From NCBI GenBank assembly GCA_031213475.1, contig JARUPZ010000003.1, positions 13,583,580-13,647,579 of the forward strand: a stretch of 64,000 bases of DNA, given 5' to 3'. Positions 3,486 through 63,060 of this stretch are shown here, in pieces (positions within the stretch are counted from its first letter, which is position 1; each line of letters starts with the position of its first letter). The notes beneath the pieces are model-generated. The model ran no database searches. It was given only the letters and a program-made list of their open reading frames with translations, and was not told the origin of the DNA. The stretch comes from Nereocystis luetkeana. Taxonomy: Eukaryota > Sar > Phaeophyceae > Laminariales > Laminariaceae. The translations under genes and the position numbers were made by a program.

Positions 3486-5395
3486 GCCCAGGATTTTACT
3501 CTATGGTTTCCCCTTTCGGCTACAAATAATGCAATACTCATGCCGCACACGGTCTACAATAAAGCGCACGGCCGAAGAACAAAAGCTGGCGCAGCAACCA
3601 ACAGAACCCCCCCCCCCCCCACTACCTATGGTCATACGACTACGGCCAGGCATGAGATCGAGTACATATCTCCTATCGAGTACCCCCCCCCCCCTCCCCC
3701 CCTACCCCAACGCACACGCGGGGGTGTCTGTCGGTGTCTGTCGGCTAAGACAAAACCCTCTCGAGGACACGAGGCACGCACACCACGACACCAAAAAAAT
3801 AAGTTCCAGCAACTACTGCTGTACCTGGTATATCAGAGGCATCACAAGCGATGCTTAAGCAGCCCGCGATCAATTACGCCTACGAAAACAACATAGAAAA
3901 GCGAAAAAAGGAAACCTGGGTGGATACACCCGGGGCGAAACGCGGTCCAGCCTTGTTTCCCGCCACTGCTTCTTCATCAGCACACAACGGCGTGCAGCCT
4001 CGTCTATACTTGAGTACCCTAAGTACGCTATCTCTTCTCCTTTCTGAACGTATGCTGCGGATTTTTTTTTTTCTTCCCGAGGGTCCTCGCTCGAGGATGA
4101 AGCTCTATTTACTACACTACCAGGTACTGGTACGTATCTATGTCTACATCCCCAAAAAAAAGTCTTCAATCCATTCGGCACTCCAGATGAAGGGGAAAAT
4201 TGACTTATCATAGACTGGCGATTACAGCATCGGCCACTGCGTGAGGGGGGGATACATCTAAACCGGTGTCCGCGTCACAATGGTTGCATGCAAGTAGTCG
4301 CGGGGCACGGGCGCAACATGACCCCACACCCGTACGACAAACAGTACTGCTGGGCGCCCACGCGGCTCGTAAATGGTTGACAACACCCAAGTTACCAACC
4401 ATTGCTTGAGGTCGATATCTCGTGGGTCCCCCTAAGGGTGATGACCCATTAATATAGGACTGCACTCCCGTTTTGTGGCCACCAAAACACAAACACCGGG
4501 GATGAAGAGTTACGGTGAGGCTTTTTTGGTACAGACCAAATAAAAAAAATAACCCTCTGAAAAACAAAACACACACACACGACGCATTCTACAGGCGTAT
4601 GATGGAGGGAGGGGCACCATTTTTTGTTCTGAGGCTCTCCATTTGAGGAGGGGGGGCTCTTATACCTCACCCAGAAAATGACTCCAAGTGAATCAAAGTG
4701 CAATGGTCCATGGATAATCCCATGGCCTAGGTTTTGCAAACATATAATTTAGCAAAAACAAGAACGGCACTACATATTCCGACGATTTTAGGTGAATAAG
4801 GAGTCCCGTCACCTCGAACGAAAAACACAATAAACCCAAAACGTGCCAACTAAATCTCTATCGTAGCGCGTATCACACGCTTTTAACCCGACAAGCAGGC
4901 AATCAATCCCACGGGCTACCACCGTACTGCTGCAGGTCTTCGACGAAAAGTGATGCAAAAAAGGAAAAATCGCCGTCGGCTAGTTAGTTTTTCAGCTGAG
5001 AAGCCCCCTCAGTCCCGGCGACAGAAACACGTTGGCCAAAAGAAGTGCCCCACCCCTACTCCTCTCGTAGAACGCGGCTCGGGTCGAGCCGAACCTCGGG
5101 AGGGGAATTAAATGCTGGCCAGACCAGCGGTATACAGTGGTCAAGGTAGGTCGATTAGGTCGAGGCACAAGCCGCCCTTTTTTATCGCCGTCACTGGTGG
5201 GGTTGTCGTTCCTAGGGGAGCGCGCCGATGGCCTCCAGTCGTCGCTTCAGCTGCAGAGACGGAGGGTGCAGGACAAAGGCGGCAAACGTGGGGGGGGGGG
5301 GGCGGGGGGGTTAGCATGCAAGGGGCATGGTGCACAATCGCGGGACAACTCAAGTACGCGCAGAGGTGTTCAATCCACCCCTCGGATAAATCATC
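3486..5395. other. Intergenic, no gene recognised
   Basis: Contains a partial family F copy (3626-3690) followed by C-runs, a chained TA micro-motif at 3824-3840 (TACTGCTGTACCTGGTA), another at 4118-4126, and homopolymer tracts. No ORF shows domain or splice support. Confidence 0.5.
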
Positions 5396-6110
5396 CGATT
5401 CATACTGCTGAACTTCATGATCCAGACCTTCTAGGGCAAATGCTTTTCCGAAATCTACTGTATATGATCTGTATGATCTGTCCGATCTAGCTCATGTTGC
5501 CGGGTGGGAGCCGTGTAATCCGCATGATCCAGGGCATGCTCTCTCCCGGGCTGCATCCGTACAGACCAGTTCCTGCGCGATAACTCGTAGCGGCAAGTTA
5601 AGATCCAGATGATCTACTGCATAGATCGGGGAGGTAGATCGTGATATGTAGATCTCGAGATGATCCGTCCGACGTGTGAACCCTCGTACTACTGCAAAAG
5701 TGACATCACACAAATTCCAAGTAGTTTGACCCCCAAAATCGTGGGTCCAGCTCTACAGGAGGACAAGGTTGAACGAGGACCAGGGGAGGGGAGATGTGCG
5801 CGCGCGGCGGGGGGGGGGGGGGGGTCGTGGAAGCTACAGTCTGTGATCTACCCCCGACAGCTCGAACAACGAATGCATGCGGCGGTACCTAATCGTAGAT
5901 CGCGCAGAAAATAGATCATACGTACAGATTGCACTCGGGAAAACATGTCCAGATCATGCAGATCATGCAGATCATCCCAACCAGGCAAATACGCATGAGA
6001 TATCAACATCATACAGATCCCACCGGGGCAAACGTGTGTGCAAGATCTACGCGGATCGTAAGGACCCCATCCGGGCACACTAGTGCAGAAGATCTACGCG
6101 GATCGTAGCA
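5396..6110. repeat. Family E (GATC-rich) repeats, two or more diverged copies
   Basis: Dense AGATCATGCAGATC / GATCTGTATGATC words, with landmarks shared with the copies at 11.2, 20.7, 22.8, 32, 46.2 and 48.7 kb: GGTGGGAGCCGT and CATGATCTAGATC-like blocks. A G-run lies at 5810-5823. Confidence 0.6.
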
Positions 6111-7136
6111 GACCTCCCTCATCTTGCCTGCAAAACGCTCCACCGGGAAAAAAACGCTTTTGGGGCAATTCCGGCCCCCCGCCGCCCCACCGTCCCACGT
6201 AAAACACTCCTGCTCCCCGTCGGCAGTAGTATCTCGTCATGGTGAGAGGAACACTACAGCTCCAGAACGAAAGCCAAGAGCTACTAATAGGGCATCGAGA
6301 CGACGATCGACATCAGTACGGGGAACTTTATTAACAATAGCAATCAGAACCGACAATTGTTGATAAGGGCCCATCGTGGGTTTTGATTTGACCATAGCCT
6401 CCTCCCGCAACAAGCGAGAGAGGCAACCAAGCAGACTCGAGTGCCCCTGGGACTTTACTTCAACAAGGGAAAACAAAAAATCAAGTGAATATTACAGCGC
6501 ATCGGGTCTCTCTCACCAAGCGGGCCGGGCTGCTGACGTACGGGGGTGGGGGTGGTAACCGAGCCACAAAAAGCAAGAAAGGGCAACAAAAGGCAGCTAA
6601 AGGCAAGAAAGGGCATCTCCGACCCCTACGCCGCACGAGGCTCGAATTTGCAAAAACAAAACCGGCGCTTTCGAACACCTCAGTACGAGCACTAGCCCAC
6701 TCTCTTGCACCGCCCCCCCTACAATACGTACGTATGCACGGAAAGATGACTCAAGTTCTGAAAGGCACAGAAAAAACAAAACAAACAAAAAACAAGATGT
6801 TCATACGATAACGCGAGCTGCAGTAGAAGGGAGACGGGTATGTACGCTAGGGCCGCTTTCACCATCGCGGAACGCGTGGGGTTCGTCACATTGTCTAATG
6901 TCTCCACAATGTTTCTTTCGCACCCGCAGATAGTGTAGGGGGAAGTCCCGACCACCTGTGTGCGTACGTAGTTCGTCCTTATTTACAGTGGGATCAAACT
7001 AAAAACACAGACACGGTCGGGGTGAATCACCGGTCCCTTCTTCGCATTCGCTTTCAGCAATCACGTCTAGTCGCAGAGTCCAGCCAATGGGTCAACAAGT
7101 AGTCGTGCGCATTGCTGCGCCCTCTCACATCAAGGT
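6111..7136. other. Intergenic, no gene recognised
   Basis: Short ORFs exist on both strands (for example 6237-6476 minus) but none has a recognisable domain or splice context. No repeat family could be assigned. Confidence 0.4.
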
Positions 7137-7292
7137 TAACCCTCAGGGCTGCAGCCCTATTTTGGGGACAAGTCACTGGGATTTTGAGTGGTTTGTGCTC
7201 AAAAACGGGACTATAGTAGTCCTGGATTTTGGGGACAAACTACTGGGAATTCGAGTGGTTTGTGCTCAAAACGGGACTAAAGTATTCCTGAA
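7137..7292. mobile_element. MITE-B, two tandem diverged copies
   Basis: Two successive palindromic cores: TTTTGGGGACAAG...CTCAAAAACGGGACT and TTTTGGGGACAAACTACTGGGAATT...CTCAAAACGGGACT. The core matches the other MITE-B copies in the window. Confidence 0.7.
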
Positions 7293-7435
7293 AACGCTTA
7301 CGCCCCGCACAGTTGTGTTGGTGTCTCTTCTGATTTTCGTTCCACCCGTCCCCTCTACCAGGTGTTGCATTTGTCCTGCTTCTCCAACCAGCTCTCTCCT
7401 CTTCGCAACTAAGATCCCCGGGGGGTCACATACAC

Positions 7436-7800: not shown

Positions 7801-8041
7801 GTTATTCACCCCGTTTCGGCCTCAAGGACTGCACTCTCGCCGTGGGGTCAAACCACTACCAGGTACCTGGTAGGAATTACAATCAGACTTGCTGTAGGTT
7901 TATGCTCACCGCAGCAACAAGAGAGTCAAACCCTTGCGAGACTCCTTTCAAGAGATAGCAACCGAAAACAATGGTTGAAAGACTTTGGTGCTAAGAACCG
8001 TCTACGAGGCAGCGGCAGCGCCCACCAGCACAGGCAGAGAA

Positions 8042-8107: not shown

Positions 8108-11100
8108 CTGCATCACACCGCGATCACGGTAGTGGTCTTCGCCGTAACCGTCGCTTTTTGTATCTTTAATTTTCCCCGCTCTGAAGACGCCTAAGAGGGT
8201 TAAGTTCGCGGAAGCAGCCTCAAAAGCTATGAGGTTACACCACTATTAACAAATCGACAGGGGTACACACCTGTTGACATCCGACGTAAATACGGATGAT
8301 TCGAGAAAAAAAACCCCTACAAACAAGTCCCAGGATCCCAAAAGGGGGGTACAAACTACTGCTGTAGGGCTGGGCGCTGGGTGGCTCAGCCAGTAGCGAT
8401 TACACTGTCGTAAAAACCAATCAGTGTACTGGATTGCGGCAGCATGCTGTCTCTCCTCTCCCCTCCCAAAACGTGTTGGGTGGGTTCCCGTATTATTGTA
8501 TGGCGTCTTTCTCGAGCGTACGTACGGTAAAAAGTGCTTGCGAACATACTGGCCAGCTCGGTACTTGCGAACATAGTGGCCAGGTCAAGCAGTAGATTGG
8601 TACTGCCAGTAGATGGCTACTGCTGCCGATACACAATGCGCCAGCGCCCAGCCCTAGTTATAACCCTCGTGCCAGTACAGCAGTAGTGCACTGTACATAC
8701 GCCTAAATATTACTCTAATTCCGAGAGTTTCGTCTCCCCAGCGGGAGCGCAGTCCGCAAGGCCTGAAGGAGTTCAAGTTACCTGTTTATACTGTTCGTGA
8801 GCGCCGTCGAAGCTGGAAACGGCCACCACGCTAACCTTGATGGTCTTTCCCAGAGCCTTGCCCATCTTACGCCTGAGCGAGCGCGAAGCGATGAAGGGCG
8901 GAAAACCGACGGTCAGTGGCTACTACGGTACGACGAACCACGCCGCCAGGAGGTGTCAACATACGCGCGAAATAGAGGCGGGGTGTCGACATACGCGCGA
9001 AGTAAGCGAGGTGTCAATATACCCGCGAAGTAAAAGAACCGACACCCTTAACGAAGCGCGTAGGAGGGGGCGTTACGGGGCGTTCGAGTGTCGCGTTTTG
9101 AGTTGCACACCACGTCTCTCCGACCACCGGCAGCAGCCATGAAAAAGCAGACCGCACGACAAAAAAAAGGATGCCGAAAACCACGCTATAGTTCGAACGC
9201 CACACGAGTGCCGGGCCGGAGGTATGGAACGCGTGCTATGTACGATAGAGGTAACGTTTCTGGTTCAGAACGTTTCCGAAAGAAGGGGCTCCCCGACCGA
9301 GGAACTACAGCAGTGCTCAATGTCACTGGGATCCCGCTAATACCGGGGACCACTCGTAGTAAATACTAGGACCTATGGTACACACAAGCACCTATATAAT
9401 TACCTATTTTTACTCACAATATTTGGTCCTATTTACTATGGCCCTTGGCAATAGTGATTCGCGATATTATTCGTAATATACATCTACATAAGGTCATGCC
9501 AATACTCCACCAGGATGGGAACATGGGTATGAGAAGGGCGGAGCCCCTGGCAGATCCTCTCTCGTGTAGCCTTGCTGTGGCCGTAGCACTCTATTGCTGC
9601 CTCCTCTTCGGTGACTCGTACTGGTCTCCTCCTGGACGGACAGCTTTCCAATGACAGATATGTGTCCCAAGACACCAAACCCACGCAAAAGAGCGAGCCT
9701 GCCAGGGTCTCCACCCCACATATGTATGATGCATATGTTTCTTTATCAACCTCAGTGTTGGGGTAACGCAACTAATAGTACAGAGCTCTTCAAGCGGGGA
9801 GCCTCAGATGGCAAGTCTATAGGTTCCCCCCTACCGCACACCTTGAGAGCATGCTCCACTATCCTATTCGGCGATACATGTCTCACCCCTTAAATGGCGT
9901 ATACCAGCACTGCACCAACAACAGCCGAGGGGGGGGGCGGGGGGGTGTACTCATTATCATGCATGGCCGTAGTCGTATGTCCATGGACCCTCGCACCCCT
10001 ACAATGCCGGGACGGAGCACGTCGGGTTTTCACCGACCAGGCAGACATTGCTTGCACCAAGAGCGAAGCGCCGTGAGGTGCTGAGCGAGTCGCATGAAGG
10101 GCGAGCTGGGGTGTTATCCAGGCTCTCTCACCGCATAAAGCACAAGACGCGACAGCGGCTGCCTCGCAAGCACGCACCCCCTCCCCAAAAAAACAAGCGC
10201 ATCAAACTTTGGGGAGTGGCCGCAGAAGCGGCAAGCCTCTGATGCTGCTACTGCTGCTGCTGCTGCAGCGGCATTCACGCCGTGAGATCTCACTTGTTGA
10301 GCGCGAACACCACTGGCAATCCCCCATCCCGCGCTGTGCGGACAATCTCCGACATCTTGTCGTCGAGTCCCCCGTCTCCCTCCATCTTGTCTACGTCGGG
10401 GGCCAAAATGATCAGGCGCACCTGTGCCCAGAGAAAACAGTAGTATCAGCGGGGTCCGTAAACAAGGGCATGGTGTTTAATTTAGTACCAGGTACCAAGC
10501 ATGAAAACGGCAAAAAAAAACGTATGAACCGTAACAAAGCCAACTTTTTTCCCCGAAGATATTATTTTCGCCGCATTTTTTTCCGGACAAGTTCCATCCC
10601 GGTCGGCCAAGGTGTTTGGGGTTAGGTTTAGGGTTTCGGGATAACGAGATTTTTTAATGGCGTTTAATAAAAAAAAAAAAACTTCTAATAATACTGGAAC
10701 CACACGCTGTACACAAACAATTTAGCTTTTTTCCTCAATACAGGTATCCTACACCAGGCATGTTTCTGTACATGCCTCCTGTAGGCGGCCTAGAAAAAAG
10801 TCGTGGCCGGGCGACGTCCACAAGCTCTTGCCTTTAGACGCATGGCACGCATGGCAAGGCGGTATTCATAGCGGGTGTACCTGGATTGTCTGAAGCTCAT
10901 CGCTCACTTAAGGACTTCTACACTATTAAGGGGGACCAAAGTAAATAGGACCTACGGTACAAACAAAAATCAATATATTTACCTATTTTTACTAACAACA
11001 TTAGGTCCTATTTACTATGGTCCCCCGTAATAGTAGGAGGTATTATAATAGTACCGTTAGGACCTCACCCGAAAAAAAACTGTCCCAGAGAAAAACAGCA

Positions 11101-16759: not shown

Positions 16760-18520
16760 ATTTTCGCCAGCTCTGGCGTGCCAGTTCTCGAAGCCTGGTG
16801 TTATCCTGGCGATTAGCTACCTCTGATACACAGGCTTCCTATGCTCGGTGTCAGCGCCCAGCAGGATTGTTGTGAAAATAGGAAAACAAATCAGAAAAGA
16901 GAACAACAGGGCAGTGTGACGTAGAAGTTTGATACATTTCGGCAGGCGGTACTTGGTACCGGGATATGGGACAAACAATGTTTTCTCCAGAGTATTTCAC
17001 TGTCGCCGCTGCCTCTCGACGCAGTGAAGGTACCCTTGGCCTCTGTTTAGGGCATTTGATCAAGGACTTCACTCCAAACCCGGCGACCGTGAGCGGTACC
17101 ACTGGATTTACACAATTTTTAAAAGAAAACTAGGCTTACGTACGTCACAGAACAATACGCCTCTTCTGTGGAACACCCGATAACAACCCGCATCCCCGCC
17201 AGCACCAAACAGCAGAGTTTTTGGTCCATCCAGATATACAACATCGTGTGGAAGTCGCCGAGCCCCAATCACGAGAGCCTTTTGCGATAATCAAGTAATT
17301 CCGGAAATATGTCCTCGCCTGGTGGCCCACGACGCTCGTCGTCGAGCCATTCCTCGTCTCCATTCTTCTCTGCGTGCGGTGGCGGCGGCGGCAAGTCCCT
17401 GAAAAAGCAGGTCGGTCAAACTGCGTACGATACTCCACGCAAGTTTTACGAAATAGTCTCTCCATCTCCACCCCGAGCTCGTATTCGTTGGCATCTCGGG
17501 TACGCGCCCATAGAGGACCATCCTCCACCCCTCCGCGCGCGCTTCCCTTCGCGTACAGAGCGCGCCGCCTACATCGAACCGGCGGCGGGCATCTATTCTA
17601 CCCTCGCTTTGCGTTCTCCCGTGCTTGTCGCTGCCGTGTGGGTAAATAAAGTCGTAGAATCCAGATTGTGTCGTACCAGGTATACTACTGCTGTGCACCA
17701 CGCGGTAGATTTCTTGTACAGTAGCAGTATTAATAGTATTCGTTGGAGTTCACTCGTCGTATCAGGTATTCAATACGGAACAAGACGTAGGCCTCTGTCT
17801 GCATGAGAATTGAGAAACATTTACGGCGGTACTACACAGCAGCAGCACGCCTCAGCAGGGGGAGGTTATGTGGCCATGCTTGGTCGGTCCTCTCGACTAC
17901 AATGTCGTGTGGATGTCGAGTACCACCGTCCCGACCACGTGTTTTATTTACTCGTTCTTTTTCCCCATCGATTTGTTTCCGAACACAACCAACGATCGGA
18001 ACAACCAACGCCAGGACACACAACAAACAAGACAAAACCGAAACGAACAGCACCGGCAAAAGTTACGTACGTACGTACGAGTACACCATTTTTTTCTTTT
18101 TTTCTGCGTACCGTACGTATACGAACTGCACTTCGAATGCTCGTACTTGCCAGGTAAACAGCACCATGCATGGCCGAAGCAGAGGTTACTGACAGTAGTA
18201 TTAATAGTAATACCAATACCCTGGGTAGTATTATACTACAACAACACTCGCTTGCTGTGCATAATCCATACCTGGTACTCGTTAAAATAGCGTCCCCGTA
18301 GTATCAAGGTATTAAGCTACAAAACAGCAGTAGGTACATGAGTCAGGTACATGACGAGTACTGCTGCTGCTGTTAGGTGTGCTGCTGCTGTACTACTATC
18401 CTTGTGTTACATGTTATGTGACCTTCGCCTCACGCCTCGCACATTTTTTCCTTTTTTTTTTTTTTTCCGCTCTTGCTCTTTGTCGTCCCATCTTGTTCTC
18501 TCTGGCGACGAAAACTGAAT
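16760..18520. other. Divergent intergenic region between SBP2-like and CxxC genes
   Basis: The SBP2-like ATG (16759, minus) and the small CxxC gene ATG (18521, plus) face away from each other, so promoters of both must lie here. A GC-rich island at 17300-17700 is open in one plus and two minus frames (plus ORF 17309-17806 begins MSSPGGPRRSSSSH). No frame could be preferred and no domain is seen. TA micro-motifs lie at 17674 and 18269. No TATA-like element could be fixed. Confidence 0.5.
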
Positions 18521-27000: not shown

Positions 27001-27465
27001 AGACGCGAACGAAGCTATAAAAAAGCCCAGGCGCCGGACATACGATCTGAAGATAGTCAGATGGTGGGCATGATGCGTTGTTTAGCGAGAACCAGCGAGA
27101 TGGACAAAAAAAACAACCCAAAAAGGCAAAAACAGCCGGACTTTTGAATAAGAACGCGGATGTATGCGTGTATGTATGTACCAGGTATACTTTATGCCAG
27201 AAATTAATGTGCAAGCAAAAGAGGTGGGTGGGGCGTCTCACGAACGAGCAAAAGCGGGACTCGGCGGCGACAAAACAAAACCCCCACCATAACCACCACC
27301 ACAATAATAATACCACCACCACCAAACAAAAACTAAATAAACTGAGCAAAACAGAATAAAAGAGTGTCCGCCCCCTTGAAGTAAATTAAAGAGGAACAGC
27401 ACCATCAGCAGCTATAATAGCTGCTTAATTAGGTAACAGGACAGCATTTTTTTTTGTTGTTGATC
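24043..27465. other. 3' flank of the CxxC gene, no further gene seen
   Basis: T-rich and G-rich low-complexity sequence. 24345-24420 repeats CGAAGC/ATACGCGAAT words. ORFs near 24203, 24726 and 25172 are hydrophobic only because of T-runs and have no domain or splice support. Confidence 0.45.
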
Positions 27466-36414: not shown

Positions 36415-37013
36415 CTGCAACAGAACCGCAACGAGGCCACGTTCGTCCTCTTCAGGCCACCAACCTCCGGGACATCCAACGCTTACACACTCCCCAAAAG
36501 AGGGCAAGCCCCAGATTCGCCATCTCGAACAAAGGGGGCAAAAATATACCAGGTATATCTGAATCTGGTTTTCATTTTGGTCGAAGGAATTTGCATGGGC
36601 TCCCTATACATGTATAAGCCAGCGTACTGGTGTAGTGCTGAGCACATACTACAGCAAAGGAGGAAAAAAGAGAGCTTTTCCTTCGATCGTGCCATCCGCT
36701 CCTCTACTGCTCTGGGAGTGCGAGTGAACTAATCACACAATAAACAAGAAAATTCGAGGGAGAAATGAGCTAGGAGACGATAGTTGGTTGAGTCTCGGGC
36801 GTCTCAATCACGCCTTAAAAAAAAAAAACTCCCACTCCAAAACCAGTTGCAGTTATCATCACGTCGGGACGGTCAACTCCGACACAGGCCTAAAATTGTC
36901 GTCTCCTGACACCTTCTATATTTTTGATTCGTGTCCCCCCCCCCTCCTCTATATGCCCTCCCACACTCCGTATAGACTTCTTTACGAACTCCACAACAAC
37001 ACTACCCACACAA

Positions 37014-48403: not shown

Positions 48404-51400
48404 TACATACATACAGACAGACAGACAGACAGACAGACAGACCGACAGACAGAACAGACAGACAGACAGCAGACAAACGGACAGGAAGAGAGAGAGGGTA
48501 GAAACCATCAGAGAGAGAGAGACAACGACAAGAAACACGCATCAGCGGACACAGTGCACAACAGTAGCAAGTAGCCCCGTCCCCTACTGTGCTACAAGCA
48601 CGTAAAGCGGTAGGGCAGCAAGCACACCACGACGCACTCCGAAATCACCCAGCAATAAACCGTTCACACGTCGGACAGGTCATGATCTATCGACAGATAG
48701 ATCATCTATGTAGCTCCTCAACAGCCGTCGTGAGAGCTTGTGCAGATCTGCACAGGTACGTACAGTAGGATACATCTAAACCCCCAGGATACGTGTTGCT
48801 ACTGTAGGCCATGCAGGTGATACGGCTCCCACCCGATAACATGAGCTAGATCATACATACCATACAGATGATAAGATATCAGGAATCTATCTGTCCTGAC
48901 AGATCTACGTCATCAAGTGTGGAGCGATCATCTGTTAGTCCTAGGTGAGGAGGAACATTCCGTCGATACGACCCCCCGCGGCAGAAACCCCGACTGTCTC
49001 CGTGCGAGAGGTACCCAACAAGTCCAATCACAATCATGCCAACGGAATTACCTCCCGCGGCGCAAACCCCACTATTAACAGCCTTCCGAGCGAACTGCTG
49101 TATCGACACTACTATTCGAGTTGCTGCTTGGCTTTCAAGTGCAGTGGGAGCCGCGGTTTAAGAGCTATCGGTTTCAACGCAAGGATTGGCTGAAGAGAGA
49201 CCACCTGGCTTGGCACGGGCATACTTGATGCTGCATAGCCCCGACGGCATCCCGACTTGAGACAAATTCGGGTCTCAAGAGATCGAAGGGCTTGACACGC
49301 GTACATTAGAAGCTACATAACATCTACTTCGGTTCAAGACAAGTTCGGCTTTAAGAGAGATCAAATGGGTTGGCACGAGCACACTAGAAGCTACACAGCC
49401 CCTATATTCCGGTTTAAGACAATTTCGGGTTTAAGAGAGATTAAACGGCTTGGCACGAGCACACCAAAAGCTACCTGGTACATACCAGGTAACCCTTATT
49501 CCGGTTTGCGAGAAGTTCGGGTTTAAGAGGAGTCGAAAGGCTTGGCACGGGCACACTATAAGCTACATAACCCCCCTGTTCCGGTTAAAGACAGTTCCGG
49601 TTTAAGAGAGATCAAATGGCTTGGCACGGGCATACTCTAGTTACAATAGGAGTTCCATAATCCCTATCCCGGTTTAAGACAGTTCGGGTTCTAGAGATAG
49701 GTCACACACACAGGCCGGACACAACCTCTCTATTAAAACCCGTGACCCCATCAGGCTAATGGCGCGATCAAACAGACACGCCTGCTGCAGCTCGTTGCGC
49801 ATTAATCGGGCTTCGACTGCTTCGACCGCTCCTCGCTTTGCTTGCCTAGGCCTTGCTTGCCTTGGATAGCTTTGGATGCCTTGGCTTGGCTATTGGCATA
49901 GCTTAGCCATTGACTATTGGCTTAGCTTAGCCATTGGCTTGAACATCGGCTTAGGTTGGCTTGGATTTGATTCAGTTAGTTTAGTTTGCTTGGTTAGGTT
50001 TGCTTGGCTTGGCTTGACGTTGCTTGGCTTGACTCTGCTTGGCTATTATTGCCTCACTTGCTCGCTTCAGCCGGCTTGGTCATTGCCCTACTTGCTCCGG
50101 TTACCTATTTGCCTTACTTGCTTTTGCTTCAAGCTGGCTTGGCCGCTGCCCTACTACTTGCTTCGGTTGGCTTGTTTAATTTTCGCGATTCCCCTACTTT
50201 TTTCGTTCGTCTCGGCTTTGCTTTGGTTGGCTTTTGGCCTCGCTTTTTGTCTTGGCTTGTCTTTATCTGCTTCGCATATTTCTCTCTCACACCTGCAAGT
50301 AACACTCCGTGCACAGCGGCTTATGGCAGCAGGTGGTCCGGTTCACCCCCAGGTAGTGCATGAAACAAATAGGACACTCCTCCGTCTGCTGGAGCTGCGG
50401 CTGCGGCGGCTGCTGCACCTGCCCCTGCTCCTGCTGTTGCCCCCCGGTCCCGACACCACCGGATCCCAGTCCTCCAACTCCAACCTGCCCGAGAGAAGAC
50501 GTCGACGTCGTGACGCTCCTCGACAATATAATCGCCGAATCGAAACCTATTCCCCCGCTGCCGCCGTCGCCCCCGCTGCCGCCCCCACCGCTTGCATAAC
50601 TGGGAGTGTCAGCCCCAGGGTAGCGGGGAGCAACGATGCCATCCATGATCCAGCGGCGCACAACACGGTCTTCCCAGGGACATGTTTCGTACAGCCTGTT
50701 TCATTTATTTGTTTGGAAATAGATCGTCAAAACAGAAGTGGGTGGGCGTCTGTCGTCAACAGAAAAAAATGTGGGCAGGCAATGAACACAGCAGTTGCTA
50801 CATACCTGGTACCAGGTATCATATACAGTAAGTAAGCAGGAGACCGAGCCTTTTTGGGTGCGTCAAGGCGTCAAGGCTGCTTTTGACCAAAACGTACCAG
50901 TTCAAGTGTGGGGGCCGTCAAGAGACCGGTCTTCTTAGACGCGTCAAGGCCACCCCGCCTTAACTCTGTCAAGACTACACTCCCGTTTTTGATACAATGT
51001 ACTTGAAATTAGGAGTCAATTTTTTGTTCCTGTGCAGTGCAGTACTGCAAAACGGTTAGTGCACATGCATACCTACAGTATTTTTATTGTAAAGGGCGGT
51101 CAAGACACCGGCCAAGTATCCATTTAGGGCGCATCAAAGCCCCTTTTGACTTGAACGCACTAGTTTTAATGTGGGGGAGCGGTCAGTCAAAGAGGTCAGC
51201 CAAGGTGTCAAATCGGAGTCTCCTCCTCCTACAGTACTACAGGGGACCCTAGTAAATAGGACCAAATATTGTCAGTAAAAACAGGTAAACATGTAGGTTC
51301 TTGTATGTACCATACCTAGGTCCTATTCACTACTAGTATGGCCCCCCGTAATAGCACCTTCGGTGGGCAGTGGGAGGCGTGGACCCTTCTTAGACCGCCC

Positions 51401-53197
51401 CTATGACCGAAAATATAGTCTCCGTTAGACAATGACCCCAAAAGAGTCCACCTGGGGGTTACACTTTCAGTCGGAGTGGAGCACAGCTCGACCCACGCTG
51501 TCCCGAGTACGATCAAACTGCTTGGCACTACAGTACGAGTACGACAAATAACACAATCTTAAGTTTTGCAGCGGACAACAGCTCATTCATCCTTTTCATA
51601 TCTGGCACTGCAGATTTTCTACTTGTCAATATCGGATGTCGCCCAAGAGCCGTATCATCAATCAGATCTCACCCGGCAATCCTGTACCCCCGAAACCGGT
51701 GTCATACAGACGCCAAACCGGCGAAACAAGACCTACAAAAGTACATCTTGGAGATCACATCACACAAACCAGGAATCTACTGTTGTATCAATAGATTCCC
51801 CTACGGCACTCGTACGTATATAGCTTCCCTAAGGAAATCTACATGATGACCTGAGGGCCTGATTTGTCCGGTGTGGGATCATTCTCTAGACCTTTTACGT
51901 ACCTACCCGTTGCGCATCGCGGTAAAAAAGGTAGCGTTTCAAGAAAAAAAGGAGAAAATGTAAAATATATATATATGGGAGAGAAGGGGGGATGTATATA
52001 CACAGCAGAAGAAACGGGGGGAGGGGCGTGCTCGATATCATGCAGGGCCACAGTCGTATGACCATAGACCCTCGCATCCCTACCATACCGGGACGGAGCA
52101 CGTCTGGATTTCACCGACCAGGCAGACGCTGCTTGCACCAACCGCGAAGCGGGCTGAGGTGTTCGGCGAGTCGCACGAAGGGTGAGCTGCATCCTACTAA
52201 GAACCGTTTGTGAGGCGGACTTGCATATGGATGACAGCGTCAACGAGTTGATTTATTTGGGGGGGGGGCGGGGGGGGGGGGGGTCGACAAAAAACACTAT
52301 CCGAGCCACGAATGCAAGAGTTAGCCGCGTACAGAAACGCAAACCTCGGCAAATACCCACACGAAACTACTGTGATGACAAAATCTACAGTGGCTAACTA
52401 GAGCAGTACACCAGGTACCGAAACAAGATTAAGCGAAAGGACCAATCGAAAAGGAGCTTATTTCGAAAAGTTTGCGGCCGGTTGCTACGTTGGGATGTTC
52501 AAGGGAGTTGACGTTCCAACATCTGGCAGTTAGCTCAGGTCAAGAGAGGAGTTCCCGAGGACGGCACTTTCTGTGTAAACAGGACGACGGAGGAAGTACA
52601 GCTCGACCGAGCAGGGGTAACAACAGTCCGTAGATTAGGTGGCGCTCCACTGGGATACCAGTGCAGCCCGAAGGCGGCAAGAGCTCACCCAACTACAGAG
52701 TAGTATACCAGGTATCACCCGGGTGATGGCAAAGCACACCCCCTAGGGGCGGATTTTTCCGAGTCGGTTTCCTACAAACAAAAGATGGGGCACGCACAGG
52801 CAACCAGAATGTGGCTTTGAAAAGTATCTCGTCGAGACCCCTCTTTCCATACACGTTCACATACGTATGTAGGCGTTTTTTCGCTTTCCCCGTTGTCCAG
52901 AAAACCACCTCCGAAAAATCGTCCCAAGGGGGTGTGTTACCTCACTGTAGTACACCTGTGTTAAATGCCGGGTAAACCAATGACTAGTCGGCGACTTGTA
53001 CAGCCTAGCAAAACCTCGAAGCCCCGCCAGGGGGGAACAATAGTAAACAGGACCAAGGTATGGTGTGTAACAAAAACATGAAAAAAATGCAGGCACCATG
53101 GACAAGACAGGCCAGGGCGTACGTACCCTGTGGGTTTGCAGTACTTCTCGAGCTCCTTGCTGACACCCTTGCGCCTCGTCGTCGAAACGTTCCCCAT
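36250..53197 (-). CDS. DA2-like: DA2/GW2/Sip5-type RING E3 ubiquitin ligase, giant gene
   Basis: Minus-strand exons: 53197-53127, 50695-50293, 48235-48131, 47541-47354, 44120-44030, 43493-43390, 42107-41993, (41814-41781 possible), 41274-40323, ~40190-39482, 38878-37058 and 36414-~36250. Exon phases agree from the first through 42107-41993 and from ~40190-39482 to the end. The N-terminus MGNVSTTRRKGVSK has Gly2 and Thr6 for N-myristoylation. LYETCPWEDRVVRRWIMDG and APRYPG precede the RING, EECPICF...CCHKPLCTECYLQ-VRPP...CPFC, then AVQYLG and AEEQRTIEARI. This order is that of plant DA2/GW2 and yeast Sip5. GW2 and DA2 are E3 ligases that limit organ size. Two UIM-like helices follow (EDLMLMEALRLSVLEEQ and SEEEQLMLAISLSLRS). 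The length is about 1,500-1,600 residues against roughly 400-500 in the family; the excess is Gly/Ala/Ser-rich. The 3' end is not fixed. Confidence 0.85.
37058..38878 (-). CDS. DA2-like: DA2-like long Gly/Ala/Ser-rich exon
   Basis: 1,821 nt, phase 0-0, acceptor TATCTCCAG, donor GGAG|GTGAGA. It starts CVPNSKLPAPSDAPELTSG and EEPGGEERQEDLRGK. Most of it is low complexity, with islands such as LERMSTLQALFSSLATEDR and SQLIEFPEEGG. The opposite strand is also open (Pro/Ala-rich). The minus reading is preferred for phase continuity with both neighbours. Confidence 0.6.
38915..38950. repeat. G homopolymer
   Basis: A G-rich run of ~30 nt in the intron between two DA2-like exons. Similar runs at 41320-41346, 47707-47722 and 52260-52282 sit in other introns of this gene. 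Confidence 0.9.
39482..40190 (-). CDS. DA2-like: DA2-like exon with UIM
   Basis: Open minus frame containing GGDEFDLATDFFGSGF, then PESEEEQLMLAISLSLRSN, a textbook UIM (acidic patch, L..A...S), then Ala/Ser-rich sequence and EEDLLGWLPRDRAR. The donor is CCG|GTGAGA, phase 0. The 5' edge is unclear because C-runs of 8-14 nt (40137-40178) disturb the frame. Past the donor the frame continues to a stop near 39332. Confidence 0.65.
40323..41274 (-). CDS. DA2-like: DA2-like Ala/Gly-rich exon
   Basis: A long open exon (acceptor GACCCAG, donor CCAG|GTAGAC). It encodes SLGARLSLYWDRVVPP, Ala runs, IPSWLEWDASDRDGGD, AVARLLAAEAAAEAAS and RRQRVMRRGDTYWGD segments. It is long open on the opposite strand too, because of GC-rich codons; minus is favoured by its place between UIM exons. 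Confidence 0.55.
41335..41390 (+). repeat. Family F fragment in a DA2-like intron
   Basis: G-run followed by GTACTCATGTCATGCAAGGC and CGTAGTCGTAGGATC. Confidence 0.5.
41781..41814 (-). CDS. DA2-like: Possible 34-nt micro-exon of the DA2-like gene
   Basis: Between GTGCAG and AGAG|GTGTAG, 34 open nucleotides (RRWPRAPADFR plus G) convert the phase 0 end of exon 7 to the phase 1 needed by the next exon. Only phase and splice dinucleotides support it. Confidence 0.3.
41993..42107 (-). CDS. DA2-like: DA2-like exon 7
   Basis: A 115-nt exon (acceptor GTACACAG, donor CAG|GTGAGG), phase 2 to 0. It encodes SGDMMRAAAAASANAS and an Ala/Thr/Ser-rich run ending AGSSGQ. Confidence 0.7.
43017..43212 (-). 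repeat. Family F repeat in a DA2-like intron
   Basis: GATGCACCTCACCCTTCATG, TCGGTGAAAATCCG, CCGTCCCGGCATTGTAGGGA and ACTACAGCCATGCATGATAA, then TGAGTAC followed by C-runs. Confidence 0.8.
43390..43493 (-). CDS. DA2-like: DA2-like exon 6: first UIM-like helix
   Basis: A 104-nt exon: LDGLGDQGEMQHVEDLM then LMEALRLSVLEEQARRE, ending GCG|GTGAGT in phase 2. It matches the DA2 (E/D)L(M/E)LLEAIRLSL.EEE.RK segment. Confidence 0.85.
43505..43680. repeat. (ATGGT/ATGGTATGGT)n degenerate array
   Basis: A GGTATGGTATGG-rich array immediately upstream, in minus orientation, of the acceptor of DA2-like exon 6. Confidence 0.85.
44030..44120 (-). CDS. DA2-like: DA2-like exon 5
   Basis: A 91-nt exon (acceptor GGATGGCAG, donor GCAG|GTGATG), phase 2 to 0. 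It encodes a basic RRQHARRARGNPSRRSS and an acidic EGEHDSGNEAQ. Its support is phase fit and good splice sites. Confidence 0.7.
44512..44612 (-). repeat. Family F repeat fragment
   Basis: CTCCGTCCCGGCATTGTAGG, GATGCGAGGGTCTACGGTCA and CACGGCCATGCCTGATATAT, then CGAGTACACC. Confidence 0.75.
44904..45013. mobile_element. MITE-A copy
   Basis: TA-TTACGGGGGACCATAG ... GTTCCCCCGTAA with a TA flank, in the intron between DA2-like exons 4 and 5. Confidence 0.88.
45053..45100. repeat. (TA)n microsatellite
   Basis: ATATAATATATATATATATA-type array. Confidence 0.9.
45407..45587. mobile_element. MITE-A copy plus adjoining right half of another copy
   Basis: A complete copy at 45407-45515 (TA-TTATGGGGGACC ... 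GGCCCCCCGTAA-TA) is followed by ATTAAACCATTTTCACTAAC ... GGTCCCCCGTAA-TA (to 45581), a right half only. TATTAATA directly follows at 45580-45587. Confidence 0.8.
45620..45727. mobile_element. MITE-A copy
   Basis: TA-TTACGGGGGACCATAT ... CTATGGTCCCCCGTAA. Confidence 0.88.
46086..46180. mobile_element. MITE-B copy
   Basis: TGCAGTCCCGTTTTGGGCAC ... TTTGTCCCCAGGGCTAAGAC then TGCGGTCCTAAAAGG. Confidence 0.75.
46192..46300. repeat. Family E (GATC-rich) fragment
   Basis: CACGTCGGACAGATCAGATA then CATCTACAGATCATTC words. Confidence 0.6.
46780..47260. repeat. Degenerate (CAACA/ATCAACA)n triplet-like array
   Basis: Long AACA/CATCA-rich tract with many AGCAACA and ATCAACA words in the intron between DA2-like exons 4 and 5. 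Confidence 0.7.
47354..47541 (-). CDS. DA2-like: DA2-like exon 4: EEQ..IEA helix
   Basis: A 188-nt exon: AEEQRTIEARIHAEQEEL then MRQVKERNARENS and an Ala/Ser/Gly tail, ending at ATGTC|GTGAGT. The family has EEQKVIEAKIR..QQEL at this point. Reading through the donor gives an immediate TGA, so intron retention would truncate the protein before both UIM-like helices. Confidence 0.85.
48131..48235 (-). CDS. DA2-like: DA2-like exon 3: second half of RING
   Basis: A 105-nt, phase 0-0 exon: VRPPRSSVDCPFCNCAKF, AVQYLGPPSKEDNDKRM. It supplies the last RING Cys pair and the (A/G)V.Y.G strand found in GW2. The donor is ATG|GTGAGG. Confidence 0.9.
48262..48480. repeat. (ACAG)n microsatellite
   Basis: ACAGACAG array with ACCG and ATAC variants, about 25 bp upstream (minus orientation) of DA2-like exon 3. 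Confidence 0.95.
48672..48915. repeat. Family E (GATC-rich) repeat
   Basis: CACGTCGGACAGGTCATGAT ... CAGCCGTCGTGAGAGCTTGT ... CGGCTCCCACCCGATAACAT ... CTGTCCTGACAGATC. Confidence 0.75.
49150..49700. repeat. ~85-bp minisatellite, about six units
   Basis: Unit landmarks in order: TTCGGGTTTAAGAGAGAT, GGCTTGGCACGRGCACAC, AAGCTACATAACCCC, TTCCGGTTTAAGACA. One unit carries TACCTGGTA and TACCAGGTA (49472-49480, 49483-49491) where its neighbour has plain TA dinucleotides. It lies in the intron between DA2-like exons 2 and 3. Confidence 0.9.
49830..50270. repeat. Degenerate TTGGCTTGGCTT-rich tract
   Basis: CTTGGCTTAGCCATTGGC-like words repeated over ~440 bp, ending about 25 bp from the donor of DA2-like exon 2. 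Confidence 0.8.
50293..50695 (-). CDS. DA2-like: DA2-like exon 2: pre-RING region and first half of RING
   Basis: A 403-nt exon from acceptor GAAACAG to donor CAG|GTGTGA. It encodes LYETCPWEDRVVRR, a Gly/Gln-rich insert, then EECPICFMHYLGVN and CCHKPLCTECYLQ. The RING needs the CPFC pair in the next exon. Confidence 0.9.
51238..51353. mobile_element. MITE-A copy
   Basis: TACAGGGGACCCTAGTAAAT ... AGTATGGCCCCCCGTAATA. Confidence 0.82.
51995..52250 (+). repeat. Family F repeat, near full length, in the first DA2-like intron
   Basis: Same block order as 29696-29945, from CGATATCATGCAGGGCC to GTGAGGCGGACTTGCATATG and CAACGAGTTGATTTA, where a G-run (52260-52282) follows. Confidence 0.85.
53127..53197 (-). 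CDS. DA2-like: DA2-like exon 1: initiator ATG and myristoylation signal
   Basis: ATG at 53195-53197. The 71-nt exon encodes MGNVSTTRRKGVSKELEKYC then KPTG and ends at ACAGG|GTACGT in phase 2. The next exon's first G completes the Gly codon, giving KPTG-LYETCPW, as in the family's (K)PxGLYP junction. Confidence 0.85.
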
Positions 53198-54971
53198 AGC
53201 GTTGCAACTGTTTTATCCCTCCGCCTCCCTCCCTCGCCCAACCCGCCTGTCTTGTCACTCGCTCGCTCGCTCCTCCCCTCTTCCTCTCTGGAAAATTCCT
53301 GGAAAAAGAAAGAGCAAGAAAGAGTACACGTGAAAGCGTACAACAGTTAGCAGTGGTCAGCAGCATGCCTGTTTCCAAGCTTCAAGCCGCGCAAGGTACA
53401 TTGAAAGAACTACAGGTGGCTAGGTATACTCTCCGTTGGACCGCTCGGTGTCACTTGCCCATTTTAATTCCGCGGTGGCTACGTGGCTACTCCCTCTTCC
53501 GAGAGCTTTCGAGAGCTTATTCTATGTTCTTCGTTCTTGCCCGGTGGCTACGTGGCTACCTGGTACGCACAAGTAGCCGGGTGCAAGGAACGAACGCCTG
53601 CTGTGTCCTCCCTTCTCAGCTCGCCACCCCCCCCGGGGTTTCAAGTCAAGCACAACCCCGAATGGAAACCTCCTATAAATACATATGGCGCCTTCACGCC
53701 AGCCGCGACAACTGCCGGTACAGGCTCCACCTCTCGGGAGCTGCAGGTCTCATCTCTCGAACGGTGCTTGGGCATCACTAAAAATCACACCCGTTACCGA
53801 TACCTTGTACCGGTAGTTTTTTTTTCCATCCCATATACCAGGTATCATTTTCGCCCTTCTTTTCTCTCTCCCTCGTCGTCGTAACTCAGATCCGAGGTCA
53901 TACAGCAGGCGTTTCCTCTCCCCCTCCCAGCTGCGGTTGGCGTCTAAAGTAGCCGCTTTCCCGCCAGAAGAGTGCAGCCCTTTCTTCCCCCGTCGACGTG
54001 CGTCTAATAGTTGCTACTGCTGTACTACTCTAGTAGGTGCTTGTGATGCGCACAAATTATATCTATACGTACCTGGTGTTTATTTCGGCTTTCTGACAAA
54101 AGACAAAAACCCCAACCATCCCACCGAAACAGAGATTCGACCATTTCTCCCCGCCGACCACGCACAACTTCGGCGTGAAGCTACACACATGACACGTTCT
54201 TGTGTTCATCTTTCTTCCTCAGCGGGCTTTCGAGTGGAGAACATTACTTGCTGGCGAGCTTTTTTGCTCCTCTTCCTTCTTTTAGCCTCCCTTTCCGATT
54301 CTTTTTTTGTCTTTGTGGGCCTTCTCTTTATACGTAAGAGTAAGTTGTAGTCGAGCATCTACCGCAAGCACAGCACAGCACGGCGCAATCAGCCCCGCAC
54401 AAAGCAGCTACTCGTAAGCAAGTACGTGCCGATCAGAGCGCGACAGCGCAAGCAAGGAGACAGAGGTAGCGGAAGCCAGCACGTCGTCGAGCGTTTATTT
54501 ATACAGCTCGATGTGCTCTCAAAGCGAACGAAGAAATCGAAATCTACTCGGTCTACAAAAAAGTGTTCGCTCATACATAGCATGGACCTCTCGGCATTTG
54601 CAAGTCGTCAGTTTGCACCTAAAACCGTGGGCATCTCTGTCCCGTCCGCTCCATGAGTTCAAAACATTGTGTATTATTTCTTGCCTGTGAGCGAAACGCC
54701 TTGTATATAAAAAAAACTCCCTCTCACACGCCACACAAGTACGTAAATCGAGGTGCTCTGATTCGCTGTCTCCGGGTGCTGCTATGGCTCCCGAACAAGC
54801 CGTCAGCGAATACACCTCGTTTTCAACCAGTCCTGCGTTTCGTGTTTCTCCCTATATTCGTTCTTCATTCATTTTGCCCAGCGCTGACCTCGAGCCACAC
54901 CTGCACCATGGTTGATAGTACAGAACGTGTCGATAAATCCTTATCAATTTAATACTGGATGGTCGTACTCG
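53198..54971. other. 5' flank of the DA2-like gene
   Basis: Must contain the DA2-like promoter and 5' UTR. 53450-53720 is a repeat shared with 60088-60330 (TTCGTTCTTGC..GGTGGCTAC, GGAACGAA.CGCCTGC, CCCCCGGGG.TTTCAAGTC). 53876-54010 is a SINE-body fragment. No gene was recognised. Confidence 0.5.
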
Positions 54972-59486: not shown

Positions 59487-59582
59487 TAAAGGTCCTCTCA
59501 GCAGCAGGGTAATTGTAGTTGAAATCTGGTACGTGTGATGATAGGGAATAAGCTACTGGTAAATAATAACATACCAGGTAAC

Positions 59583-59691
59583 TATTACGGGGGACCATGG
59601 TCAGTAGGACCTAGGGTATATATAAAAACCAATATATATAACCATTTTTACTAACACTATCTGGTCCTATTAACTATGGTCCCCCGTAATA
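59583..59691. mobile_element. MITE-A copy
   Basis: TA-TTACGGGGGACCATGG ... CTATGGTCCCCCGTAA-TA. The micro-motif TACCAGGTA ends 2 bp upstream (59572-59580). Confidence 0.9.
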
Positions 59692-60355
59692 GAAAGAAAC
59701 GTGAAAAAAAAAACGTCGTCGCATGACCATGGATGAATGAACATTACACCCCGTGCACGTGCAACCTCGGAAAATTATTTTCCAAACATAGACACCCACA
59801 CTCCTTGATTCTACAGCTTCAGGTTTTGTCGTCACACACGGGATGTGTACAGCCTTCATGAGGCCATGTAAAACCCCGTAGTACGAGCGATCGGAGCATC
59901 ACGCACAGGTTGCTGAGAGGAGATGAGATTCGAGCAGCTCCTCGAGGTCACAGGAACAAGTTTCACATCAAACGTAGACAGGAGGGAAAACGCTGGAAAA
60001 GACATCTGTCATGGTTCCTATAATAGTTTCTATGCATCGGGGGTCGACGTTCTTCTCCTCTCTCGAGGCTCACACAGAACTAAACTCGTTTGGGCTGGTC
60101 GGTGTTACTTGCACGGCGGTGGCTAATTTTTCCTTATTTAGCTTCCCAAGAGATTCTGTTTTTTTCGTTCTTGCTTGGTGGCTACCGGTACGCACAAAAA
60201 CGTACCTGGCACGAGGAACGAAACGCCTGCGGTGTTCTCTCTCTCTCTTTCTCCGCTCGCGACACCCCCGGGGATTTCAAGTCGATCATGTTTCCCCGAA
60301 GAGGAACGAACCTTGTATACATCACTTAATTGTGTTGGATGTTGAAAGATAATCG

Positions 60356-60472: not shown

Positions 60473-61064
60473 GTTCGAGACGATACTGGTCAAAGAATAA
60501 CGAGCGTAATCGATACGCTTTCGATACTCGATGCGTTCGTCGAAACCGTTGCTCAGTGTCCGCATAAAAACGGGGGCGTTTTCAACAAGAACACGGGCGG
60601 ATGCCAGGGGATGGAACGAAAAAATAAAACCGCGTTCGATATTTCGATTCGATATGAAATTAACACTACTCTACACAGAGCGACGCATCCTTCCCATGCG
60701 CGCATCGCTTGGCGTTCGCACTCTCTCACAGAAAATTAGGTTGGAACTTCGTCCGAAGGAGTGTGTAATATCATCACACGTACGTGTGGTAGTACTAAGT
60801 CGTACGTAACGGTACGTGCGACATTCTAGATTTGAGTCAATTTTAGTTCTCGAGGCTGTCGACCGTCGACTTTGGACCGAAGATCCCGACGTGGATAATA
60901 CCAGTCGAGCAAGTTTGTCGTCAGTCACTGGTCGGCTGGGCAGGTGCAGCTTGCGCTTTACCAGGTACCAAGTACAGGGTGGTCCCTCACAAACGCTGTG
61001 GTAGTGCCGGTATTTTTTTTCGGCTGGCACATTTCTTCACTCCAATGCTAAGCCTGTACACGCC

Positions 61065-61176: not shown

Positions 61177-61512
61177 TCAAGTCCGGAGTAGCAGCTTCCG
61201 CAGGAGTGCCGGTTTACCTGGGTGGCACATACCCTCGGTCAGACGCGAACCCACGAAAATGATCTCAGTAGGTGCACCATGCACGGTTGACCGGATATCT
61301 TTAGAGGCGGGGGTGGACTCGTCAGCGGCTGCCCTAGCCTACGAGGGTATGGTATGATATCGGCTATGCCTCCTGTAAACGTAGTAAACCCTACCAGGTA
61401 CCAGGTGCTGCTGAGGGGTTGCACCCGAGCTCTCTATATACCCTGGTATTGTTTTTTTCAACATCACTGCCACAGCAGTACTTCCAGCCTAACTCGTACG
61501 AGGTTTTACCCT

Positions 61513-61890: not shown

Positions 61891-62013
61891 CAATGCTACG
61901 CAACAAATATAGCATGACAATACTGGTATTACTGCTGTAGTCGGACATACTGCTGGGCGCTCCCACAAGAGAGTTCGTCAGACCGCGCCTGGCATAGTTT
62001 TCGTCCGGACACC

Positions 62014-62474
62014 TGTTAACGGGGGACCATAGTAAATAGGACACACGGTATATACAAAAACCTATATATACCGTTATTTTTCCTAACAAAACATTTGGTC
62101 ATGTTTACTATATATATATTTTTTTTCTCATCCCATTTATTATCTTCGCACATCTTCGTCTCTCTCTCCTTCCAACTCGTAACTCAGATCCGGGGTAAAA
62201 TAGCAGGCTCTTCTCCCCCCTTCCCGCTACGGTACGTGCCTTCATTTTTATCGCGAGAAGATTTCAGCCTTTTCTTCCTTCGTCGACTCGCATCGAATTG
62301 TGCCTACCCACGCTGCAAGGCGCTCTCAACAATTGAATCCTGTTATATTTTTATTTTTGCAAATAAATTCAAAGTCCGACCCACCTGGGGCTCGAACCCA
62401 GGACTCGAACAAGTAGAATTCGAGGTTACCCACTTGAACCACCGGGGCGACCGGATTGGTCCCTCGTGAATAGG
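62014..62474. mobile_element. MITE-A interrupted by a SINE
   Basis: The MITE-A left part (TTAACGGGGGACCATAGTA ... CATTTGGTCATGTTTACTAT) ends at 62114. A full SINE follows, and the expected MITE right end (ATTGGTCCCTCGTGAATA) resumes at 62456-62473. Confidence 0.8.
62115..62454 (-). mobile_element. tRNA-derived SINE, full-length copy 3
   Basis: T-run 62119-62126 (minus-strand poly(A)), the CTCATCCCATTTATTATCTT body, and the tRNA-like head with CTGGGTTCGAGCCCC on the minus strand. Confidence 0.88.
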
Positions 62475-62624
62475 CCCCAGGCGGGATGGTATCAGGTGCC
62501 TGATACACAATAAACTTGGTATATTTTTGTTTATTTTCTCCATGTTTTTCTTTGTATCTTTTGTATTTTCTCTCGTCACTCTTTCAACGCATCTGGATTG
62601 CTACTGTAGCATGTGTACGCCGTG

Positions 62625-63060
62625 CCTGTCGTATCCAATACGACGACATGTGTGTGTGCGTTCTTCACATTAAACCGTTCCTTCTACCCGTCGACATCCA
62701 GCACAACCAGTGTCCGTGCCGATTCTTCAATCCTAGAAGAGATACAAGTTCTGTGGTCACAAAGCTACGCCAGAGAGAACTACGTTGCCACGTACCAGGT
62801 ACCTGGTATGCAGTAAGCACAGCAGTGGGCAACGCAATGCCATGTCATCGGACTACTGTACCTGGTAGATACGACAGGCACGACATACACGTTCTATGAA
62901 ATAGAGATACGAAAGGAAGCAATCAAAGAGAAAACAAAAACAACAAAGAAGACAAGAGAAAAAAAAAAAAATGAAAGCAAAAACTAGCAGAAACAATCTG
63001 TCGTGCCCCCCCCCCCGGCAGGCGAGGTGGCCAACACTTGAAAAAGAACGAGCTGGAAAA
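62625..63060 (-). mobile_element. Family D 3' end, minus orientation
   Basis: The reverse complement of the 63380-63800 copy, so the two copies face each other. Carries the filled TA sites at 62793-62808 and 62854-62867. Confidence 0.75.

Follow-up and report, generated by a model that had tools for sequence, protein, structure and literature searches.

TACCWGGTA in the Nereocystis luetkeana genome: probable excision footprints of a TA-inserting DNA transposon

Excision of the DNA transposon Sleeping Beauty leaves a footprint of the form TA-CWG-TA, in which the central W (A or T) comes from a mismatch. We analyzed a longer sequence of similar design, the 9-mer TACCWGGTA, in a 64,000-nucleotide stretch of the brown alga Nereocystis luetkeana (assembly GCA_031213475.1, contig JARUPZ010000003.1; G000:C3:13583580-13647579), here called the window, and in the whole assembly of 465,085,209 bases. 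We conclude that every TACCWGGTA is very probably a footprint left by the excision of a cut-and-paste DNA transposon, whose TA target is duplicated on insertion. From these footprints we infer the element itself, its ends, the stagger of its cuts, the type of its transposase and the order in which chains of footprints were built.

Relatives of Tc1/mariner leave a footprint between two TAs after end-joining (PMC2874221, PMC4561436, PMC1925063; all papers are cited here from portions of their text). Such footprints are given as 2-4 bp (PMC7913693) and, for Stowaway/Osmar5, as fragments of the terminal inverted repeat (TIR) of 1-4 bp on each side of the join (PMC1925063). The target of ZB and SB is quoted as ATATATAT (PMC7913693). 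Excision footprints are thus known already, as is reinsertion at the TA of an earlier footprint, in Australopyrum (PMC1925063), which resembles what we describe below.

The sites in N. luetkeana share with Sleeping Beauty and Tc1/mariner the TA target and its duplication, the central W and, presumably, the origin of the bases between the TAs from the tips of the inverted repeats. They differ in their core (5 nt, as opposed to 2-4 bp in PMC7913693), their number (182,395 copies), their chains, and a target of 16 bp rather than ATATATAT. The dominant 5-nt core exceeds the 2-4 bp of PMC7913693 and, if it does derive from TIRs, falls inside the 1-4 bp per side described in the portion of PMC1925063 cited here, so a 5-nt core alone is no sign of a new group. 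The proposed mechanism resembles that of Tc1/mariner, and we do not claim membership. Stowaway/Osmar5 in grasses also left several distinct footprints at one site, where 1-4 bp of TIR remained next to the duplicated TAs; however, that case concerns one gene intron and few footprints (PMC1925063), whereas footprints here are genome-wide, with one dominant palindromic product and measurable feedback. Another brown alga, Ectocarpus, has 17 Mariner-Tc1 families with mostly non-autonomous copies (PMC12477816); the word "footprint" is absent from the text of that transposon survey, supplements aside, as far as the portion available goes. A search of 5.39 million papers for the 9-mers as whole words found no report of the motif. 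Novelty seems to lie in the scale, in the 16-bp target rule and in the feedback.

Abundance and specificity of the motif

We found 27 exact copies of TACCWGGTA in the window, 16 centered on A and 11 on T. A preliminary description of the window had claimed at least 24 separate loci. Of its 24 coordinates, 23 are exact and one, given as 3832, is actually 3822, 10 bases off. Its chains at 7857, 50803 and 62793 each hold two overlapping 9-mers, hence the total of 27. It had expected about 0.5 copies per 64 kb from equal base frequencies; 100 dinucleotide shuffles of the window averaged 0.30 copies and never exceeded 3, and the excess is real. The center of the motif is specific, with TACCSGGTA (S, C or G) found once in the window and 7 times in 276 kb that contain 106 copies of TACCWGGTA. 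No other four-base arm with a W center occurs more than 7 times in the window.

The excess extends to the whole genome, as the preliminary description had proposed. TACCWGGTA occurs 182,395 times in the 465 Mb, compared to 1,744 for a reversed-pattern control (105-fold). As none of the 100 shuffles reached 27, and given this 105-fold difference, chance or base composition has a negligible probability as the explanation. Chains are common: there are 15,917 doubles (2 in the control) and 1,689 triples (0 in the control), with ratios of ~0.09 for doubles to all 9-mers and 0.11 for triples to doubles.

Rates were estimated from 264 kb, made up of the window and 20 further 10-kb stretches at round coordinates. 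This sample holds 92 copies, 65 of them outside the window (~21 per 64 kb). Loci L010-L013 were chosen for their chains; they contribute to the comparisons of repeat copies and to the 276-kb total, but not to the rate, target and by-product counts.

Empty sites and the spectrum of products

We compared repeat copies with each other, within the window alone and then within the 276 kb (106 sites), and judged clean cases by reading alignments. Clean relatives with an empty TA were found in the window for the sites at 49472, 49483, 53836, 62793/62800 and 62859, and elsewhere for L015:8154, L016:1556, L023:566 (several empty copies), L026:6518, L028:3808, L032:3875 and L033:831. In all of these cases, excising CCWGGTA (or the chain; together with CTG at 62859) restores the sequence of the relative, barring point differences. 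In L013 and L016, two sites each were uninformative, as both copies of one segment carried the motif; for the other sites a usable relative was absent or the alignment ambiguous. The scars are insertions of CCWGGTA at TA and not ancestral sequence. As with Tc1/mariner, insertion is at TA with duplication of the TA: filled sites differ from empty ones by x+TA. The preliminary description had looked to related strains for empty and filled alleles; they are seen at about a dozen sites between repeat copies inside this genome, and the comparison was not across strains. A stricter scan covered 316 positions at which repeat copies differ by an indel. It gave 17 indels of 7 bp, TA-bounded in 5 cases, and 23 of 6 bp, among which TA was the most frequent bounding pair (8/23).

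A palindrome can also be the binding site of a dimeric protein that selection maintains or multiplies, and the motif is indeed palindromic and strand-symmetric, with a flank consensus that is symmetric and extended. We regard this as very improbable, because the sequence is present in 182,395 copies, also at round coordinates (65 in 200 kb), is gained as 7-bp insertions with TA duplication, and has non-palindromic by-products (CCAG, CCCTGG).

Two known types of footprint were considered and rejected. Those of hAT elements are palindromes of flanking DNA (PMC4561436, in the part cited), whereas here the core is constant while the flanks vary. PIF/Harbinger elements make a 3-bp duplication and mostly excise precisely (same source and limit), whereas here the duplication is the 2-bp TA and footprints are abundant.

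The best record of products came from "site A" of a dispersed repeat (62673-62921). A genome search with this repeat yielded 2,717 first-look candidates, with 43 matches scored. All 20 copies that were fetched had units at site A, probably because the query itself bore two, and this sample is biased. A pattern made from the flanks only, with 0-30 bases allowed between them, found 916 copies, and 100 of these were listed in contig order, blind to the insert. Site A was empty in 42, held a single unit in 39, and held chains or other forms in 19. The single units were CCTGG (18, in one of which the final TA reads TG), CCAGG (11), CTGG (4), CCAG (2), CCCTGG (2), CCAGGG (1) and CCGG (1). All 39 consist of a prefix of CCAGG plus a suffix of CCTGG, as end-joining of two TACCAGG-3' ends would yield, and 10 of the 19 chain or other alleles are built wholly from such units. 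The claim that a CCWGG core with either A or T would arise at one TA is borne out: both centers occur at the same site in a fixed orientation, along with 4- and 6-nt by-products, as expected of a symmetric CCAGG end and a 5-nt stagger. Because the flanks fix the orientation, the paired forms CCAGG/CCTGG, CCAG/CTGG and CCAGGG/CCCTGG suggest that the two ends of the lost element were alike.

By-products of this kind are enriched in the 264 kb over a second-order Markov expectation: CCAGGG/CCCTGG (10 found, 0.7 expected), CCATGG (3, 0.2), CCAG/CTGG (20, 7.4) and CCGG (10, 4.0). Six-base forms followed by TA in the 276 kb were CCAGGG in 10 cases and CCTGGG in 3, two of which are copies of one repeat. 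At site A, 44 copies had TACCWGG with a next base other than T, and these included CCAGGG 27 times and CCTGGG twice. As CCAGGG is far commoner than CCTGGG, the sixth base of the element's end is probably G.

Other inserts of the form TA-x-TA also have empty relatives: CTG (L011:2141), CTGG (L016:7755), CTCG (window 54410), TTAA (L013:2618, L033:900), CAGCAG (L022:4652), CCTCG (L028:3705) and CTTCG (L016:997). The genome may carry scars from several additional transposon families. At "site B" of the dispersed repeat, copies L054-L073 are either empty or contain TTAA, CTG, inserts resembling CAGCAGTAG or longer AT-rich ones, unlike site A ~60 bases off, where CCWGG units enter.

Target preference, feedback and chains

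We found that footprints prefer certain TAs. The TA pair is preceded by R and followed by Y, and an extra TA lies exactly 7 bp outward on either side. With chains excluded (n=78), a TA at 7 bp was present in 27.6% of footprint flanks and in 7.2% for all TAs. The preference is not shared by TACWGTA (8.6%), TACGAGTA (2.3%) or TACAGCAGTA (7.1%). We sorted the TAs of the 264 kb by these features, leaving out chains (80 footprints). Occupancy was 1/1,698 for TAs with neither R/Y nor TA, 31/4,108 with R and Y alone, 17/592 with R, Y and one TA, and 6/31 with the full TAnnnnRTAYnnnnTA; it was 0/9 for TAs with two TAs but neither R nor Y. The preferred insertion target is the 16-bp palindrome TAnnnnRTAYnnnnTA, so that a palindromic preference around TA, a property of Tc1/mariner, is found here as RTAY plus a TA at 7 bp.

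A footprint itself provides a right TA preceded by G with a TA at -7, and a left TA followed by C with a TA at +7. Since it supplies part of the target pattern, its own TAs should become better targets, and scars can seed scars. This feedback may account for the excess of chains. Neither the 16-bp preference nor the self-reinforcing effect was anticipated in the preliminary description.

Site A is much fuller than most TAs. Of its 100 listed copies 58 are non-empty, compared to an average of ~0.8% per TA (182,395 footprints over ~23.7 million TAs, extrapolated from 13,462 TAs in 264 kb). This could mean that the repeat spread with the element already at site A and that copies lost it later, occupancy being inherited rather than due to a hot target. 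However, one excision per copy would leave one unit, and 42 of the 100 copies are bare and 19 have several units or other forms, near a Poisson distribution (a mean of 0.87 gives 36 single and 22 more). In addition, the general target rule already makes site A a warm target (TA at +7, R and Y by the TA). We therefore find inheritance of a resident element unlikely.

Chains might also have grown by slippage of 7-bp units, as in a microsatellite, after one or a few ancient insertions. We tallied W states by eye from listings, counting repeat copies individually. The 59 doubles listed on the + strand were AA (23), TT (17), AT (14) and TA (5), so that neighbors with the same W are over-represented (40/59), as slippage would predict. 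The 50 triples listed were AAA/TTT (15), AAT/ATT (22), TAA/TTA (7) and ATA/TAT (6). But singles are the commonest form (182,395 units, with 15,917 doubles and 1,689 triples) and have unrelated flanks, mixed chains exist (CCAGG-CCATGG, CTGG-CCTGG-CCTGG), and the same repeat can have a bare TA. Slippage is improbable as the general explanation, although a fraction of the chains may owe something to it. Feedback leaves the excess of equal neighbors unaccounted for; this excess could come from tandem duplication or from biased orientation at an asymmetric target.

The putative element and other features of the window

Excision, by the mechanism we propose, would proceed as follows. The inverted ends of the element would start with 5'-CCAGG, probably CCAGGG, and one strand would be cut ~5 nt inside the element, giving TACCAGG 3' overhangs on both chromosome ends. 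The overhangs would pair CC to GG with an A:A mismatch, and repair to A or T would give TA-CCWGG-TA. Trimming or misalignment would give CCAG/CTGG, CCGG, CCATGG and CCAGGG/CCCTGG. The scar would set a TA at 7 bp and the correct base (C or G) beside its TAs, making the next insertion likelier, and repeated insertion and excision would build chains of 7-bp units. The preliminary description had read TA-CCWGG-TA as a scar of excision with 5-nt overhangs. The empty relatives and the product spectrum support the scar; a 5-nt stagger is the simplest reading of the sequences.

Several observations weigh against an excision origin. The TA-flanked element with CCAGG or CCTGG ends that was predicted earlier did not turn up in the 276 kb, which hold 106 scars, and no transposase could be tied to the motif. 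Only one TACCWGG...CCWGGTA pair in the 276 kb has long inverted repeats, and it is an isolated palindrome of 53 bp (L018:388-440). Profile searches gave 0 matches at E 0.001 among 30 candidates for PF13358, and 0 for PF01359, for which the control was silent too. Large filled sites between repeat copies contained no CCAGG-ended element in the best 60 of 97 candidates; they did reveal a miniature element of ~105 bp that has TTACGGGGG ends and a TA duplication. At site A, 8 of the 44 copies with a base other than T were read for 60 bases: three (L075, L076, L078) carry a unit extended by G, two (L074, L079) resemble decayed copies, and two (L080, L081) resemble rearranged copies. In the eighth, L077 (G000:C6:1209544-1209603), the site-A flank is followed by TACCTGGC and then by non-repeat sequence. 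This junction is unexplained and fits the predicted CCAGGG end poorly; its first bases are common to four further places. CCWGGTA made up only 2 of the 17 7-bp indels in the strict scan, and 9 of the 19 chain or other alleles at site A contain a piece that is not a CCAGG prefix plus CCTGG suffix. The W states of neighboring units are interdependent, and some chains may have arisen by tandem duplication. TAGGWCCTA (57%, n=14, part of a repeat) and other 9-base palindromes taken together (21%, n=12) often had a TA at 7 bp as well. TACWGTA and TACSGTA are near parity in the window (21 and 18). Finally, a summed prefix and suffix score for CCAGGG (9.1-fold) was unspecific, with 7 of 150 random hexamers, mostly AT-rich, scoring higher (up to 21.8), and it was not used as support.

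Places with TACCAGGGTA were considered as element ends and rejected, as their flanks share nothing; we read them as 6-nt footprints. A search of viral contigs for chains of the motif gave 9 loci, and the one examined (L001) holds just the two 9-mers of the chain itself. It is possible, though we put this forward tentatively, that the candidate belongs to a perhaps undescribed group of TA-target transposons whose scars copy their target spacing, giving self-propagating landing sites and growing 7-bp chains, with hardly any copy of the element staying in place.

The genome also contains pogo-like transposases (DDE_1, PF03184; 28 matches, 20 loci inspected). Two loci, L044 and L047, have a TA duplication and the TIR CAGTACCGGCC. 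Where TIRs around the DDE_1 gene were clear among the 20, they start CAGTACCGG; L050 has a shorter TIR match, L043 an inverted duplication, and the other inspected loci had nothing within 3.4 kb. TA-CWG-TA occurs 87 times in the 264 kb, compared to 22 expected from a first-order model and 44 from a conditional model. The CAG ends of the pogo-like elements fit this excess, so that the first bases of a TA element match another TA-x-TA excess. These elements are like the putative CCAGG-ended one in their TA duplication and in having first bases that fit a TA-x-TA excess. Unlike it, their TIR CAGTACCGGCC cannot yield CCWGG, and TACWGTA lacks the 7-bp TA preference (8.6%, background 7.2%).

The footprints of the window and the repeat with sites A and B, a natural excision assay, are listed in Table 1.

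Table 1. Footprints and the dispersed repeat in the window
Feature	Position	Strand	Remark
footprint TA-CCTGG-TA	3822..3830	.	
footprint TA-CCAGG-TA, then TA-CTGG-TA (4-nt form)	4118..4132	.	
double footprint TA-CCAGG-TA-CCTGG-TA	7857..7872	.	
footprint TA-CCAGG-TA	10486..10494	.	CCAAG-CA next, perhaps a decayed second unit
footprint TA-CCAGG-TA	17674..17682	.	
footprint TA-CCTGG-TA	18269..18277	.	
double footprint TA-CCTGG-TA-CCTGG-TG	20162..20177	.	final TA now TG
footprint TA-CCAGG-TA	23263..23271	.	
footprint TA-CCAGG-TA	27179..27187	.	
footprint TA-CCTGG-TA	28106..28114	.	
footprint TA-CCAGG-TA	36547..36555	.	
footprint TA-CCAGG-TA	41923..41931	.	
footprint TA-CCTGG-TA	42690..42698	.	
footprint TA-CCTGG-TA	49472..49480	.	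within 80-bp tandem array; remaining units without motif
footprint TA-CCAGG-TA	49483..49491	.	array unit shared with 49472; remaining units without motif
double footprint TA-CCTGG-TA-CCAGG-TA	50803..50818	.	
footprint TA-CCAGG-TA	52706..52714	.	
footprint TA-CCTGG-TA	53557..53565	.	related copy at 60183: TA-CCGG-TA
footprint TA-CCAGG-TA	53836..53844	.	absent from copies near 62119, 27480, L030:9722
footprint TA-CCAGG-TA	59572..59580	.	TA of TTACGGGGG miniature element 2 bp further on
footprint TA-CCAGG-TA, then TA-CCAAG-TA	60959..60967	.	
double footprint TA-CCAGG-TA-CCAGG-TG	61392..61407	.	final TA changed
double footprint TA-CCAGG-TA-CCTGG-TA, site A of dispersed repeat	62793..62808	.	bare TA in copy 63620-63783; one unit in L033:831
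footprint TA-CCTGG-TA preceded by TA-CTG-TA, site B of dispersed repeat	62859..62867	.	bare TA in copies near 57703, 63662
dispersed repeat carrying sites A and B, natural excision assay	62673..62921	+	

Several other sequences were noted. A miniature element of ~105-110 bp, which duplicates TA and has TTACGGGGGACCATAG as its inverted ends, is present in the window (44904-45581, 59583-59691, 10922-11033 and others) and at L030:6044-6150; it has an empty site by comparison with L025:7305 and window 42887, and a search for it in viral contigs gave 0 matches. TACCAAGTA/TACTTGGTA, with CCAAG/CTTGG between TAs, occurs at 16674, 16950, 21272, 26423, 32657 and 60966 (6 in the window, 0.4 expected) and twice more in the other 212 kb (8 total); this is not a simple product of CCAGG ends. 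L018:384-444 is a near-perfect palindrome of 61 bp, in which TACCAGG...CCTGGTA lies close to the ends and CAGCAG in the interior. The window also contains ~61 copies of the 8-bp repeat GCAGGCAA (2507-2994) and, on the minus strand (13616-16759), an RRM protein; the one hit to it that is named with an organism is a partial protein from the kelp Laminaria digitata (59% identity over 59% of the query).

In the papers cited here, excision footprints are described a few at a time, from assays or single genes; one genome here has ~180,000. The 916 exactly flanked copies of one repeat are a natural excision assay in which the spectrum of repair is written out. The history of a transposon can be read from its scars alone, with a target rule that is quantitative. 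These results also call for caution, as many short indels and palindromes in this genome may be transposon debris rather than regulatory sequence.

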